Shown here piece after piece: positions 47,732 to 55,493 of a stretch of DNA of 64,000 bases. The stretch's first letter is position 1, and the number at the start of each line of letters is the position of its first letter. Made by a program: the position numbers and the translations under genes. The stretch comes from Amedibacterium intestinale (GTDB taxonomy: Bacteria > Bacillota_I > Bacilli_A > Erysipelotrichales > Erysipelotrichaceae). The notes below the pieces were generated by a model that had not been told where the DNA came from, did not search any database, and saw only the letters and a program-made list of their open reading frames with translations. The stretch is taken from contig NZ_AP019711.1 in the NCBI RefSeq assembly GCF_010537335.1, positions 2,294,001-2,358,000 of the forward strand. The letters are read 5' to 3'.

Positions 47732-48805
47732 ATGACGAAAATAGATATTATTTCAGGGTTTTTGGGCGCTGGAAAAACAACGTTGATCAAAAAATTATTG
47801 CAGGAAGCTCTGCAGAATGAAAAACTAGTATTAATCGAGAATGAATTTGGAGAAATTGGAATTGATGGTGGATTCTTGAAAGATGCAGGTATTGAAATAA
47901 AAGAAATGAATTCTGGTTGTATTTGTTGTTCTTTGGTAGGAGATTTTTCAGAGGCTTTAAAAAAAGTTCTAGAAACATATTCTCCAGATCGTATCATAAT
48001 TGAACCAAGTGGTGTAGGTAAATTGTCTGATGTAGTGAAAGCAGTAAAAGGTGTAGCAGATACAACACTAGAAATTAATAGTATTACAACGGTTGTAGAT
48101 GCACAAAAATGTAACATGTATATGAAAAACTTTGGAGAATTTTTTAATAACCAAATCGAATATGCGAAAACAATTGTATTAAGTCGAAGCCAAAAATTAT
48201 CAGATGAAAATTTACATGAAGTAGTTCATGAATTAAAAGAACATAATGGTGCTGCTCATATCATTACAACAGAGTGGGATAAACTAGATGGTAAAGAAAT
48301 TTTAAATGTCATGGAAAATCAAGGCAACTTGGAATATGAACTTTTGCAGGAAAGTGAAGTTTGTCCAGAGTGTGGTCATGTTCATAACCATGATGAACAT
48401 CATCATACTCATGAACATTGTGAATGTCATCATGACCATGAAGAACATGATGGACATGCATGTGATTGTAACCATGAGCATCATCATAAGCATAGCTGTG
48501 GATGTACACATGAACATCATCACCATGCGGATGAAGTATTTACAAGTGTTGGAATGGAAACTGTTCAACACTATGATAAAGAAGAACTTGAAAGTATTTT
48601 AAAACAATTATCAGAAAGCGATGAATATGGAACAATATTACGTGCAAAAGGAATGTTAGAAGATAAAGAGGGAAAATGGATGTATTTTGATTTGGTACCT
48701 CATGAATATGAAATTCGTGAAGGACAGCCTACATATACAGGACGTTTTTGTATAATCGGATCAAAATTACAAGAAGAAAAACTAAAAGAACTTTTTAAGA
48801 TGTAG
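47732..48805 (+). CDS. CobW/ZNG-type GTPase with His/Cys-rich metal-binding insert
   Basis: A 357-residue G3E GTPase that probably hands a metal ion, most likely zinc, to target proteins. The P-loop is GFLGAGKTT (residues 9-17) and the metal-sensing GCICC is at 62-66, both complete. Residues about 211-266 form an extraordinary insert with 23 histidines and 8 cysteines arranged as CxxC or CxC pairs among H-rich runs. A C-terminal CobW domain follows. Such His-rich segments store or buffer zinc, nickel or cobalt. The next gene encodes a second CobW-like protein 12 bases downstream. GAAGGAA precedes the ATG. The metal is inferred. Confidence 0.9.
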   Translation: MTKIDIISGFLGAGKTTLIKKLLQEALQNEKLVLIENEFGEIGIDGGFLKDAGIEIKEMNSGCICCSLVGDFSEALKKVLETYSPDRIIIEPSGVGKLSDVVKAVKGVADTTLEINSITTVVDAQKCNMYMKNFGEFFNNQIEYAKTIVLSRSQKLSDENLHEVVHELKEHNGAAHIITTEWDKLDGKEILNVMENQGNLEYELLQESEVCPECGHVHNHDEHHHTHEHCECHHDHEEHDGHACDCNHEHHHKHSCGCTHEHHHHADEVFTSVGMETVQHYDKEELESILKQLSESDEYGTILRAKGMLEDKEGKWMYFDLVPHEYEIREGQPTYTGRFCIIGSKLQEEKLKELFKM

Positions 48806-51331: not shown

Positions 51332-51380
51332 AAGACTGTATAGATAGCAGAAGGGAATTGCTGTCTATACAGTCTTTCTT
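51332..51380 (+). terminator. Terminator of the symporter gene
   Basis: AAGACTGTATAGA (51332-51344) pairs perfectly with TCTATACAGTCTT (51364-51376), followed by TCTTTTTC. Confidence 0.85.
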
Positions 51381-51404: not shown

Positions 51405-51433
51405 TTGACAGAAGATAAACATAGATATATTAT
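51405..51433 (+). promoter_or_regulatory. Promoter of the marR-ABC exporter operon
   Basis: Consensus TTGACA (51405-51410), 17 bases, TATTAT (51428-51433). The -10 forms the left edge of the operator at 51428-51466. Confidence 0.85.
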
Positions 51434-51466
51434 TTAGCAGGCTAATAGTTAGTAAGCTAAATAATA
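51428..51466 (+). promoter_or_regulatory. Nested MarR operator over the promoter
   Basis: An outer perfect inverted repeat, TATTATTTAGC (51428-51438) and GCTAAATAATA (51456-51466), encloses two half-overlapping boxes of the same pattern: TTAGC-AG-GCTAA (51434-51445) and TTAG-TAAG-CTAA (51449-51460), 15 bases apart. The design fits two MarR dimers covering the -10 and the start site, so the operon is very probably autorepressed. Confidence 0.8.
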
Positions 51467-51478
51467 GGAGTGATGACC

Positions 51479-51901
51479 ATGAAGATACCGTTTCATTTAA
51501 TGATGTTTAAATCCTTTCATGCGCAAAGAAATGTACTGCGAAAAGGAATGAAGGAATTATCACCAGGACAGCCCAAAATATTACGTTATGTTGCAACGCA
51601 TCAAAATTGCATGTTGAAAGATATAGCTTCTTCATGTGATGTAGAATGTGCAACAGTTTCAAAAATTTTAAATGCATTAGAAGAAAAAGAATTTCTTGAA
51701 AAGGAAATTTCTAAAAACAATAAAAGAGCATTATGTCTTCGTATCACAGAAAAAGGAGAAAAAGCTTTACAGCATTGGAATTCACACTGTGAAAAAGTAG
51801 AACAGCTTTCTTTACAAGGATTTAGTGAAAGAGAAAAAGAACAGTTTTATGATTATTTAAACCGTATGTATGAAAATTTAAGTGGAAAAGAAATGAATTA
51901 G
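51479..51901 (+). CDS. MarR-family transcriptional regulator
   Basis: A 140-residue winged-helix repressor. The recognition part is about residues 45-70 (LKDIASSCDVECATVSKIL), the wing ISKNNKRALCLRITEKG follows, and terminal helices form the dimer. ATG 51479 lies 8 bases after TAGGAG; the two earlier start-like codons overlap that site. It heads an operon with two ABC exporter genes and its promoter carries a matching double operator, so it probably represses its own operon until a drug-like ligand binds. Confidence 0.93.
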   Translation: MKIPFHLMMFKSFHAQRNVLRKGMKELSPGQPKILRYVATHQNCMLKDIASSCDVECATVSKILNALEEKEFLEKEISKNNKRALCLRITEKGEKALQHWNSHCEKVEQLSLQGFSEREKEQFYDYLNRMYENLSGKEMN

Positions 51902-51912
51902 GAGGGAGTTCC

Positions 51913-53637
51913 ATGTTGAAGAGAATATGGCCATTTATGAGCCGGTATAAAAAATATTTGTTTATGAGCTGTTTATGCGTTATGGTAGAAACGGTATTTG
52001 AACTTGTCATTCCTATGTTGATGGCAGATATCATTGATGTAGGTGTTGCCAATAGGGATACACATTATATCTTTATACGCGGTATATTGATGATTGCCTG
52101 TGCTTTTTTTGCACTTCTGTTAGGAGTATTCTATGCAAAATACGCAGCTATGGCAGGGCAGGGATTTGCGGCAGAATTAAGGAAAGCAGAATTTAGAAAA
52201 GTTCAAAGTTTTTCTTTTTCAAATATGGATCATTTTTCTACATCAAGTTTAATTACACGTTTAACAAGTGATGTTACCATATTACAAACTGCAGTATCCA
52301 ATGGGATTCGACCAATCGTACGCTCACCCGTCATGCTTATTACCGCGTTGTTTTTAACATTTTCCATCAATGCGAAATTAACGATTGTATTCCTGATTGC
52401 GATACCGGTTTTAGGAATAAGCTTATTTTTGATAGTGAAAAAAGTAGGTCCATTGTATCGTTTGATGCAGACATCTGTTGATCGAGTAAATACGATTGTA
52501 CAGGAAAACTTAAATGCGATAAGAGTTGTGAAATCCTATGTAAGAGGAGATTATGAACAAGAGAAGTTTGAAAAGGTGAATGCAGATCTTCGCTCTTCCA
52601 GTGAAAAGGCATTTCGAACTTCTGTATGGAATCTTCCAATGTTTCAATTTGTTATGTATACAACAATTATCTGTATACTCTGGTTTGGGGGAAATATGAT
52701 TTTTGTTGGAACTATGAAAGTTGGGGAGCTAACAGGATTTTTAAGTTATGTTTTACAAATATTAAACTCTTTAATGATGATTTCCAATGTGTTTTTAATG
52801 TTGACTCGATCACTTGCAAGTTGTGAGCGAATCATTGAAATTTTTGATGAATCTATTGATATTTCTGAAAATGAAGAAAAACAGGCACAGGTGGAAAATG
52901 GAGACATTGTCTTTGATCATGTTTATTTTAAATATCAAGACAGTGCGAAAGAATATGTTTTACAGGATATTAATTTGCATATAAAAAAAGGAAGTACAGT
53001 TGGAATCTTAGGAGGATGTGGTTCCGCAAAAACAACTTTGGTACAGCTGATTCCTCGCTTATATGATGTAAGTGAAGGAGAGATTCGAATTGATGGAAAA
53101 AATGTAAAAGAATATCCATTACATCATCTAAGAGATGCGATTGGAATGGTCTTACAGAAAAATACTTTGTTTTCAGGAACAATTCGAGAAAATCTTTTAT
53201 GGGGAAATGAGCAGGCAAGCCAAGAAGATTTAGATTGGGCATGCCATGTTGCCTGTGCAGATGAGTTTATAGAAAGCTTTCCAAACGGTTATGAGAATGA
53301 TTTAGGTCAGGGAGGAGTAAATGTATCAGGTGGACAAAAACAGCGCTTATGTATTGCCAGAGCCTTATTAAAACATCCAAAGGTTTTAATCTTTGATGAT
53401 TCAACCAGTGCGGTAGATACTCGTACAGAAGCAAAAATAAAAGAAGGATTAGCTTCTTTAAAAGATACAACCAAAATCATTATTGCACAGCGTGTAAGCA
53501 GTATTATGCATGCCGATCAAATTGTAATTTTAGATGATGGAAAAATACATGCGATAGGAACACATGAAGAATTGTTGAAGAAAGATTATGTTTATCAGGA
53601 CATTTATACTTCACAGCTGGAAGGAGCTGGTTTATAA
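51913..53637 (+). CDS. ABC exporter half-transporter with degenerate ATP site
   Basis: A 574-residue half-transporter: six membrane segments (about 15-310) and an ATPase domain (about 335-574). The signature VSGGQKQR is normal. Other positions are altered: Walker A is GGCGSAKTT (about 367-375), the catalytic glutamate after Walker B is aspartate (D496 in IFDDSTS), and the switch histidine is glutamine (Q526 in AQRVSS). These changes are typical of the non-catalytic half of heterodimeric exporters such as BmrCD and LmrCD. The next gene overlaps its stop by one base and supplies the partner. GGAGGG precedes the ATG. Confidence 0.93.
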   Translation: MLKRIWPFMSRYKKYLFMSCLCVMVETVFELVIPMLMADIIDVGVANRDTHYIFIRGILMIACAFFALLLGVFYAKYAAMAGQGFAAELRKAEFRKVQSFSFSNMDHFSTSSLITRLTSDVTILQTAVSNGIRPIVRSPVMLITALFLTFSINAKLTIVFLIAIPVLGISLFLIVKKVGPLYRLMQTSVDRVNTIVQENLNAIRVVKSYVRGDYEQEKFEKVNADLRSSSEKAFRTSVWNLPMFQFVMYTTIICILWFGGNMIFVGTMKVGELTGFLSYVLQILNSLMMISNVFLMLTRSLASCERIIEIFDESIDISENEEKQAQVENGDIVFDHVYFKYQDSAKEYVLQDINLHIKKGSTVGILGGCGSAKTTLVQLIPRLYDVSEGEIRIDGKNVKEYPLHHLRDAIGMVLQKNTLFSGTIRENLLWGNEQASQEDLDWACHVACADEFIESFPNGYENDLGQGGVNVSGGQKQRLCIARALLKHPKVLIFDDSTSAVDTRTEAKIKEGLASLKDTTKIIIAQRVSSIMHADQIVILDDGKIHAIGTHEELLKKDYVYQDIYTSQLEGAGL

Positions 53638-55493
53638 TGGCAAAAGCTACAGGAAAAAAACCGCAGAATATGGCGAAAACATTACGAAAACTCATGAAAT
53701 ATATGGGGAATCATAAGTTCTCTTTATTGCTTGTAGGGATTCTTGTTATATGCAGTGCGGGGGCAAATTTATATGGTACTTATATGTTGCAGCCTATTAT
53801 TGATGAATATATCGTACCAAAAGATTATGATGGTTTGGTATCTGTGATTTTATTTATGGCATTGATGTATGGTGCAGGGGTATGTGCTACAGCTATTTAT
53901 AAACAGTTGATGACACATCATACAGCACAAAAGATTACACAGGAAATCCGCAGGGATTTATTTAAGAAAATGCAAAAACTTCCTTTGCGATTCTTTGACT
54001 CACAAACTCATGGAGATATTATGAGTCGATTTACCAATGATATCGATACTTTACAGGACGCTTTAAATAACTGTTTTGATAACCTTATTCAAAGTTTTAC
54101 GATGATCATAGGTACACTAACAGCCATCTTTATCCTAAACTGGCAATTGTCTTTGCTGGTCATGATATTTATGATCATTATGTATTTTTTAATACAGTTT
54201 TACAGTAAACGCTCTAAATATTATTTCTCTCATCAGCAGGCAGCTATGGGTAAACTAAATGGTTTTATAGAAGAAATGGTGGAAGGAAGCAAGGTTGTAA
54301 AAGTATTTAACCATGAAGATATAAGTTTTAAAGAATTTGAAGAACGAAATGAAAGACTTCGTATAGCTGGGACAAAAGCTTTAACGTATTCTGGAAAGAC
54401 GATACCTACGGTTGTCGCCATCTCTTATATCAATTATGCAGTTGTTGCCTGCATAGGTGGTTTTTTTGCGATAGCAGGAAAAATTCAGTTAGGTGCATTG
54501 GCATCTTATCTTGTTTATGTACGTCAAACTGCATTACCTATTAATCAGTTTACACAGCAGTTAAATTTTATTTTGGCAGCAATGGCTGGAGCTGAACGTA
54601 TTTTTACAATGATGGATGAAAAAGAAGAAGTAGATGATGGAAAGGTAACATTAACAAGTGTGCGTCTTATGGAAGATGGAAGTTTAGAGGAATGCAAAGA
54701 GCATACAGGTCATTGGGCATGGCGTCATCCTCATGGAGACCAAATAGAACTTGTTCCTTTACAAGGGGATGTACGTTTTCATGATGTTGTTTTTGGTTAT
54801 ACTTCCAATGTAACCGTGTTAAAAGGAATTCATGTATATGCGAAACCGGGACAAAAAATTGCCTTTGTAGGTAGTACAGGAGCAGGAAAAACAACCATCA
54901 CAAACTTAATCAATCGTTTTTATGATATTAAAAGTGGAAGTATTACCTATGATGGAATTGATGTAAAACTGATTCAGAAAGCAGATCTTCGTCATTCTAT
55001 TTCTGTTGTTTTACAAGATACACAGTTATTTACGGGTACGATAGCGGATAATATCCGTTATGGAAATTTAGATGCAGATATGGAGCAAATCATAGAGGCA
55101 GCAAAATTAGCAAATGCACATAGCTTTATTAAACGTCTGCCGAATGGATATGATACGATGCTGGAAGGCAATGGCAGCAATCTATCACAAGGACAAAGAC
55201 AATTGCTGGCAATTGCACGAGCTGCGGTTGCAGATCCTCCTGTTTTAATTTTAGATGAAGCAACTTCTTCTATAGATACTAGAACGGAAAAATTAATTGA
55301 GCAGGGAATGGATAAACTAATGGAAGGAAGAACGGTATTTGTCATTGCACATCGTCTTTCTACTGTACGTAATTCTGATGCGATCATGGTTTTGGATCAT
55401 GGAGAAATCATAGAAAGAGGAAGCCATGAAGAACTTCTTCAACAAAAAGGAAGATACTATCAGTTATATACCGGACAGTTTGAACTAAGCTAG
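53637..55493 (+). CDS. ABC exporter half-transporter, catalytic partner
   Basis: A 618-residue half-transporter with six membrane segments (about 30-335) and an ATPase domain (about 375-618). Walker A GSTGAGKTT, Walker B ILDEATSSID and the switch AHRLST are all canonical. Its signature is LSQGQ instead of LSGGQ; this signature faces the degenerate Walker site of the first subunit, so the change matches that site being inactive. An insert of about 40 residues before the ATPase core (EDGSLEECKEHTGHWAWR) is unusual. The pair probably exports drugs or lipids under MarR control. Confidence 0.93.
   Translation: MAKATGKKPQNMAKTLRKLMKYMGNHKFSLLLVGILVICSAGANLYGTYMLQPIIDEYIVPKDYDGLVSVILFMALMYGAGVCATAIYKQLMTHHTAQKITQEIRRDLFKKMQKLPLRFFDSQTHGDIMSRFTNDIDTLQDALNNCFDNLIQSFTMIIGTLTAIFILNWQLSLLVMIFMIIMYFLIQFYSKRSKYYFSHQQAAMGKLNGFIEEMVEGSKVVKVFNHEDISFKEFEERNERLRIAGTKALTYSGKTIPTVVAISYINYAVVACIGGFFAIAGKIQLGALASYLVYVRQTALPINQFTQQLNFILAAMAGAERIFTMMDEKEEVDDGKVTLTSVRLMEDGSLEECKEHTGHWAWRHPHGDQIELVPLQGDVRFHDVVFGYTSNVTVLKGIHVYAKPGQKIAFVGSTGAGKTTITNLINRFYDIKSGSITYDGIDVKLIQKADLRHSISVVLQDTQLFTGTIADNIRYGNLDADMEQIIEAAKLANAHSFIKRLPNGYDTMLEGNGSNLSQGQRQLLAIARAAVADPPVLILDEATSSIDTRTEKLIEQGMDKLMEGRTVFVIAHRLSTVRNSDAIMVLDHGEIIERGSHEELLQQKGRYYQLYTGQFELS

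Follow-up and report, generated by a model that had tools for sequence, protein, structure and literature searches.

Several regulators of the winged-helix MarR type have been described that resemble the one considered here. In E. coli, an exact copy of the SlyA consensus site is reported 22 bp upstream of the slyA gene itself (PMC5797941). MepR of Staphylococcus aureus, the regulator of mepRAB, is described as binding pseudo-palindromes and a GTTAG motif, as repressing its own synthesis beside a multidrug pump, and as being released by a substrate of that pump; at the mepA promoter, two MepR dimers may be bound (PMC3617543). Two dimers of Rv2887 from Mycobacterium tuberculosis were crystallised on a 30-bp duplex, each over 15 bp and on nearly opposite faces of the DNA, and according to the authors each dimer sits independently (PMC5526998). 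Here, we analysed a stretch of 64,000 nucleotides of Amedibacterium intestinale DNA (contig NZ_AP019711.1, positions 2,294,001 to 2,358,000; hereafter, the window), in which a marR gene is followed by two genes for ABC half-transporters. We are confident, short of certainty, that positions 51434-51460 form the double operator of a self-repressed MarR-ABC-ABC operon, to which two MarR dimers would bind. The features of the region are collected in Table 1.

Table 1. Coordinates of the promoter region and genes of the predicted MarR-ABC-ABC operon in the window.
Feature	Position	Strand	Remarks
Intrinsic terminator	51332..51376	+	19-pair stem and T run; also inverted repeat I1
-35 element TTGACA	51405..51410	+	
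-10 element TATTAT	51428..51433	+	17-bp spacer to -35; doubles as outer part of left outer arm
Outer dyad TATTATTTAGC / GCTAAATAATA	51428..51466	none	exact; arms at 51428-51438 and 51456-51466
MarR box 1 TTAGCAGGCTAA	51434..51445	+	predicted; starts directly 3' of -10
Gap TAG, 3 bp	51446..51448	+	sets the 15-bp period
MarR box 2 TTAGTAAGCTAA	51449..51460	+	predicted
Probable ribosome-binding site AGGAG	51466..51470	+	read from the sequence; listed as SD at +5 in the promoter comparison
marR, winged-helix regulator, 140 aa	51479..51901	+	PF01047
ABC half-transporter 1	51913..53637	+	PF00664 + PF00005 (membrane and ATPase domains)
ABC half-transporter 2	53637..55493	+	PF00664 + PF00005

The marR product belongs to the MarR family, as it matched PF01047 with 47.4 bits (E=1.8e-12; cut-off 24.6), and a palindromic site, conserved in the orthologues, lies on its promoter. 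The structure model (pLDDT 92.6) contains wing strands and shows the recognition helix (residues 57-69) as one helix, and the best-ranked PDB matches include MepR, MarR, MexR, and SlyA. The marR gene is separated from the first ABC gene by 11 bp, and the stop of the latter overlaps the second ABC gene by 1 base. Together, the three genes make up one predicted unit of the MarR-ABC-ABC type. The reading of the two half-transporters as an exporter is based on their Pfam domains; among the matches listed for either ABC protein, none of the 25 NCBIfam models reached its cut-off. The terminator, which stands 3' of a sodium:dicarboxylate symporter gene and parts two transcription units, was found once against 0.0 expected in shuffles. 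Further upstream (47732-48805), the window contains a gene for a CobW-family GTPase (PF02492) with a histidine-rich stretch. A similar CobW-like ORF adjoins the MarR operon, in divergent orientation, in five other loci (L047-L051), and the neighbourhood may be linked.

The region reads, in order, terminator, TTGACA, TATTAT, box 1, TAG, box 2, AGGAG, and the marR ATG at 51479, with the start of box 1 placed 45 bp 5' of the start codon. TTGACA-17-TATTAT agrees with the promoter consensus at 11 of 12 bases, and promoter-like sites alone are not significant in this region (1 found vs 1.3 expected). The preliminary description of this DNA had reported two TTAG-N4-CTAA boxes at an offset of 15 bases, and both of them were located, the start of box 2 lying 15 bp from that of box 1; adjacent sites about 15 bp apart are also what characterises the Rv2887 complex. 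The boxes had further been said to overlap the -10 element, but in the window box 1 abuts it without overlap. The perfect 11-base outer dyad was confirmed, as its arms are exact. It does not enclose the boxes as had been stated; instead, each arm has 5 bases in common with a box, while its other 6 bases are the -10 element (left) or the AT-rich flank (right).

The two-box pattern gave one match in the window and none in 100 dinucleotide shuffles, and it occurs at a single place in the 2.49 Mb genome (reversed control, 0). The outer dyad pattern was likewise absent from 100 shuffles, but this pattern was written from the sequence itself. A lone TTAG-N4-CTAA box is unremarkable in the window, with 2 found and 1.52 expected. 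In the whole genome it is present at 13 places, two of which are the boxes described here, compared with 109 places for the reversed control; this rarity perhaps arises since both half-sites hold stop-codon letters. A genome scan with TTAGC-N2-GCTAA, by which the regulon was to be defined according to the preliminary description, gave one exact place and, with up to one mismatch, 23 places vs 79 for the reversed control. Thus, with no enrichment of this word over the control, no wider regulon was detected in the genome scan. None of the other 11 TTAG-N4-CTAA places is paired: six are within an ORF or reach its end (L075, L007, L078, L080, L081, L082), two are intergenic and not 5' of a likely gene (L077, L010), and three stand 73-95 bp 5' of an ORF (L076, L079, L083). 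Each of the last three is a lone box that lacks the pyrimidine-N-N-purine core typical of most conserved boxes, and they may still be kept as candidates for further regulon sites.

The conservation of the pair was determined in two surveys of MarR homologues. In 60 related genomes, nine MarR orthologues of 46-63% identity were found. Both boxes, perfect and at the same gap, precede marR in five of them (L018-L022), where box 1 starts 40-44 bp before the gene, and one orthologue (L026) has one perfect box. The other three (L023-L025) have no box directly upstream of marR; a perfect pair about 0.8 kb upstream heads the same operon. Since that pair stands ahead of an extra ORF, its position follows the operon promoter rather than the start codon of marR. 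The extra ORF, of 237 aa, lies between the double operator and marR in all three loci and would hence be under the same control if the operator acts; the one tested, that of L024, belongs to the Asp/Glu racemase family.

In the survey of named homologues, 80 of 134 confirmed homologue loci were kept. The perfect pair with a gap of 3 bp was present within 250 bp in 21 of these and within 1.2 kb in 4 more (25/80). Another 25 loci have one or more perfect boxes within 250 bp, and the remaining 30 have neither a perfect TTAG box within 250 bp nor a perfect pair within 1.2 kb. Conservation 5' of orthologous marR genes, on which the preliminary description had made its operator depend, or at the operon head was observed in 23 of the 31 best-scoring named loci (L085-L115), and the gap is 3 bp in each of these; among the remaining 8, five show the pair at gap 3 with one or two mismatches. 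In L097, L098, L100, and L108, the pair is about 0.8 kb upstream of marR. One perfect box only was found in L099, L101, and L109, so two boxes are not required everywhere. The two surveys overlap (L088, L091, L092, L093, L097, L100, L108, and L109 with G043, G038, G056, G048, G045, G040, G058, and G025), and their counts are therefore not independent. The tree of the MarR proteins omits L052, L054, and L055 as near copies of L107, L085, and L086.

We also searched 395 class genomes from the DNA side. The fixed pair pattern was found at 16 sites in 15 genomes; the reversed control, a more frequent word (for a single box in the genome of the window, 109 places vs 13), matched in 2 genomes. All 16 sites precede a MarR ORF and then an ABC ORF, with one extra ORF between in G040 and G045. 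The check with Pfam and tblastn comprised five loci of a more distant genus, plus L165, the second site of G081; L056-L060 represent one genus. When the gap was left free from 0 to 20, 27 of the 395 genomes matched, and the reversed control matched more of them (55, by our count), so only the concentration at gaps 3 and 9 is informative. The free-gap sites cluster at two gaps, namely 3 and, in a single family (eight genomes), 9, the latter corresponding to 21 bp or two helical turns; single or few cases were seen at gaps 1, 8, 11, 12, 13, 15, and 18. In all 8 gap-9 loci, the ORF behind the sites was assigned by eye to another MarR family, and both of those that were tested matched Pfam MarR; the rows of this family form a separate tree branch (99/98), and in 6 of these 8 loci the ABC-like ORF family matches the first ABC protein of the window. 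In this second MarR-ABC family (L061-L065, L067-L069), TATAAT is found, on one strand, between TTAG-N4-CTAA boxes that are 21 bp apart, and L063 and L064 contain a third box 27 bp upstream.

The spacing of the boxes was then considered apart from their letters. With up to two mismatches allowed, the best gap was 3 in 32 loci, and the next one, gap 0, was best in 4. In the half-site-free scan, the mutual likeness of the four half-sites is scored and the letters are ignored; it was applied to 21 + 55 of the 80 loci and omits the four loci with a pair beyond 250 bp. The result showed that gap 3 is the best in 19 of the 21 perfect-pair loci and in 25 of the 55 loci without a perfect pair. Among the 55, the runner-up was gap 18 with 6 loci (ties shared), and shuffles, in which base composition alone was preserved, had no preferred gap. 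The 55 include a clade with TTGA-N4-TCAA and a few loci with TAAG-N4-CTTA, likewise 15 bp apart; where the half-site differs in this way, the 15-bp period is often kept.

The half-site tracks residue 61, which lies in the recognition helix of the adjacent MarR. Proteins with Ser61 have TTAG in 33 of 45 cases (12 unclassified), those with Cys61 have TTGA in 11 of 13 (2 unclassified), and those with Gly61 have TAAG in 3 of 5 (2 unclassified); these three combinations were never crossed. With Thr61, TTAG was found in 4 of 10 (6 unclassified), and with Val61 in 0 of 7. The Cys rows and the Gly rows each form one clade (100/100 and 100/95), so they represent about two evolutionary changes and not eighteen. 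Blurred half-sites were observed in six Ser61 rows of a Victivallales clade and in L123, L125, and L129. In L144, L147, and L148, which have Thr at residue 61, the boxes abut (gap 0, 12-bp period). Ser62, Val64, and Arg65 of SlyA are reported to touch base pairs (PMC4737184), and residues 59, 61, and 62 of the window MarR would correspond to them, given that its match to the NCBIfam SlyA model is offset by 3. A broader proposal, that the 15-bp period is a conserved code, is put forward tentatively, and we hold it to be slightly more doubtful than not. According to it, the regulator would, in a broad clade of MarR-ABC operons, stack helically as two and sometimes three dimers, with the spacing constrained more than the half-site; the half-site could switch from TTAG to TTGA or TAAG together with Ser61 to Cys or Gly while the stack is kept, and a sister MarR-ABC class would use a 21-bp, two-turn period.

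In the proposed mechanism, the MarR dimer encoded just downstream would bind both TTAG-N4-CTAA boxes when no inducer is present. MarR would be loosened by a ligand, which is probably transported by the two-subunit ABC exporter, and the marR and exporter genes would be released together. If transcription starts 7 bp 3' of the -10 element, the boxes would span about -6 to +21, and for this reason their occupancy should block the entry or the escape of the polymerase. Judging by the position of the sites, MarR probably represses its own promoter. The preliminary description had placed the two dimers on shifted faces of the helix. The preferred 15-bp offset, about 1.4 helical turns, agrees with this, because, at 10.5 bp per turn, a rotation of about 154 degrees would separate dimers centred 15 bp apart and place them on nearly opposite faces; such binding is suggested by analogy with Rv2887. 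Cooperativity, if any, may act via DNA shape. As far as can be judged from the DNA, the operator is very probably real, conserved, and autoregulatory, and for it we infer binding of the regulator, occupancy by two dimers, repression, release by a ligand, and drug export.

Alternatively, one MarR dimer might bind at a time, the two boxes being alternative or overlapping sites that raise the local number of sites and are not occupied simultaneously. The boxes are close together for a MarR footprint, and the three loci with only one perfect box also fit such binding, but mere extra sites would tolerate any gap, whereas both boxes stand at one gap in 25 of the 80 loci. The Rv2887 complex, as described, shows that two dimers can share a duplex of 30 bp. 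In addition, the 15-bp period extends over three box-like sites in L121, L135, and L142 (1-2 mismatches in 24 positions, counted without a shuffle control). We therefore consider binding of one dimer at a time unlikely. It is much less probable that the boxes are used by a MarR-family protein other than that of the window. They match the consensus of SlyA, which is a different regulator (PMC5797941), and the word is thus not exclusive to one regulator; however, the genome has a single copy of the pair, located next to this marR, all 16 class sites lie before a MarR gene or its operon, and the half-site changes follow the recognition helix of the MarR encoded next to them. Occupancy of the pair by two dimers of the window MarR is our preferred reading.

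To evaluate the outer dyad, 26 promoters were compared, namely that of the window and those of all 25 perfect-pair loci. In 22 of them, the end of the best -10 element and the beginning of box 1 are at most 2 bp apart (range -2 to +1), and the exceptions (L110, L115, L120, and L156) are weak predicted promoters with 5-8 of 12 consensus bases. The -35 sequence TTGACA is present in 15 of the 26, with near variants in most others. Of the seven positions that flank the pair on either side, six are complementary in the window and in L107 and L156; in each of the remaining 23 promoters, no more than four are (0-4 of 7). The outer dyad had been presented as a part of the operator; with flank pairing conserved in only 3 of 26 promoters, this was not supported, and because pairing is low in all the others, the dyad is most likely a local coincidence of the AT-rich -10 element and leader. 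Least probable of all, and hardly credible, is that one large complex uses the 39-bp dyad as its operator or that the dyad is a 5' leader RNA hairpin acting on translation: the 18-nt arms of the dyad (51428-51445 and 51449-51466) are 83% complementary and the dyad ends where the ribosome-binding site lies, but the conserved part is the box pair with its gap, the pair may stand about 0.8 kb away from marR (the four loci named above), the left outer arm is the -10 element, which is not expected to be transcribed, and the hairpin was judged unlikely on the same low conservation of flank pairing.

If the double-operator reading is true, the operon provides a ready-made test system for MarR dimers that share one promoter, with a natural series of gaps (3, 9, and 0), of one, two, or three boxes, and of three half-sites whose change goes with that of one residue. 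ABC operons under the control of MarR would then be recognisable in gut bacteria from DNA alone. For the window itself, the site appears to be an ordinary, well resolved autoregulatory operator; the part that deserves specialist attention is the fixed period with changing half-sites. Among the literature matches listed, from a coverage that leaves out most subscription journals, neither this operon nor a conserved pair of MarR operators at 15 bp was the subject of any title or abstract.

The comparison with known systems shows where the locus resembles them and where it departs. The consensus of SlyA, a MarR-family regulator of Salmonella and E. coli, is TTAGCAAGCTAA, from which each window box is one base off, and the MarR-type winged helix is common to both proteins. 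The window MarR scored 31 bits against the SlyA NCBIfam model PRK03573 (cut-off 120), so it is not a SlyA equivalog, and unlike SlyA it is encoded in an ABC operon with a fixed site pair and without a detected wider regulon. MepR is the best-scoring solved relative by sequence profile and has the best Foldseek E-value, with MarR (3bpx), MexR, and PcaV having TM-scores above that of MepR; identity to MepR is 22-25%. A MepR system has the MATE pump gene mepA beside the regulator gene, while the two genes that follow marR here code for ABC half-transporters. MepR is described as acting at two promoters with unequal sites, whereas in the window one promoter carries two alike boxes at 15 bp. The marRAB operon of Mycobacterium smegmatis (Ms6508-6510) also consists of a MarR gene and two ABC transporter genes and is repressed by MarR; it differs in having one conserved 21-bp palindromic motif, and its transporters are reported to pump rifampicin into the cell (PMC4143341). 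ZitR and AdcR of Lactococcus and Streptococcus are MarR-type repressors whose own promoter carries the 12-bp TTAACYRGTTAA palindrome in one or two copies; they are described as zinc sensors of a zinc uptake operon, and their sites overlap the -35 and -10 elements, whereas the window boxes lie from the -10 element downstream (PMC6372160). The sites of Rv2887 are, as reported, GC-rich and read indirectly, one of them is not palindromic, and the target is Rv0560c (PMC5526998); its geometry is, by analogy, the arrangement that we propose for the two MarR dimers of this operon.
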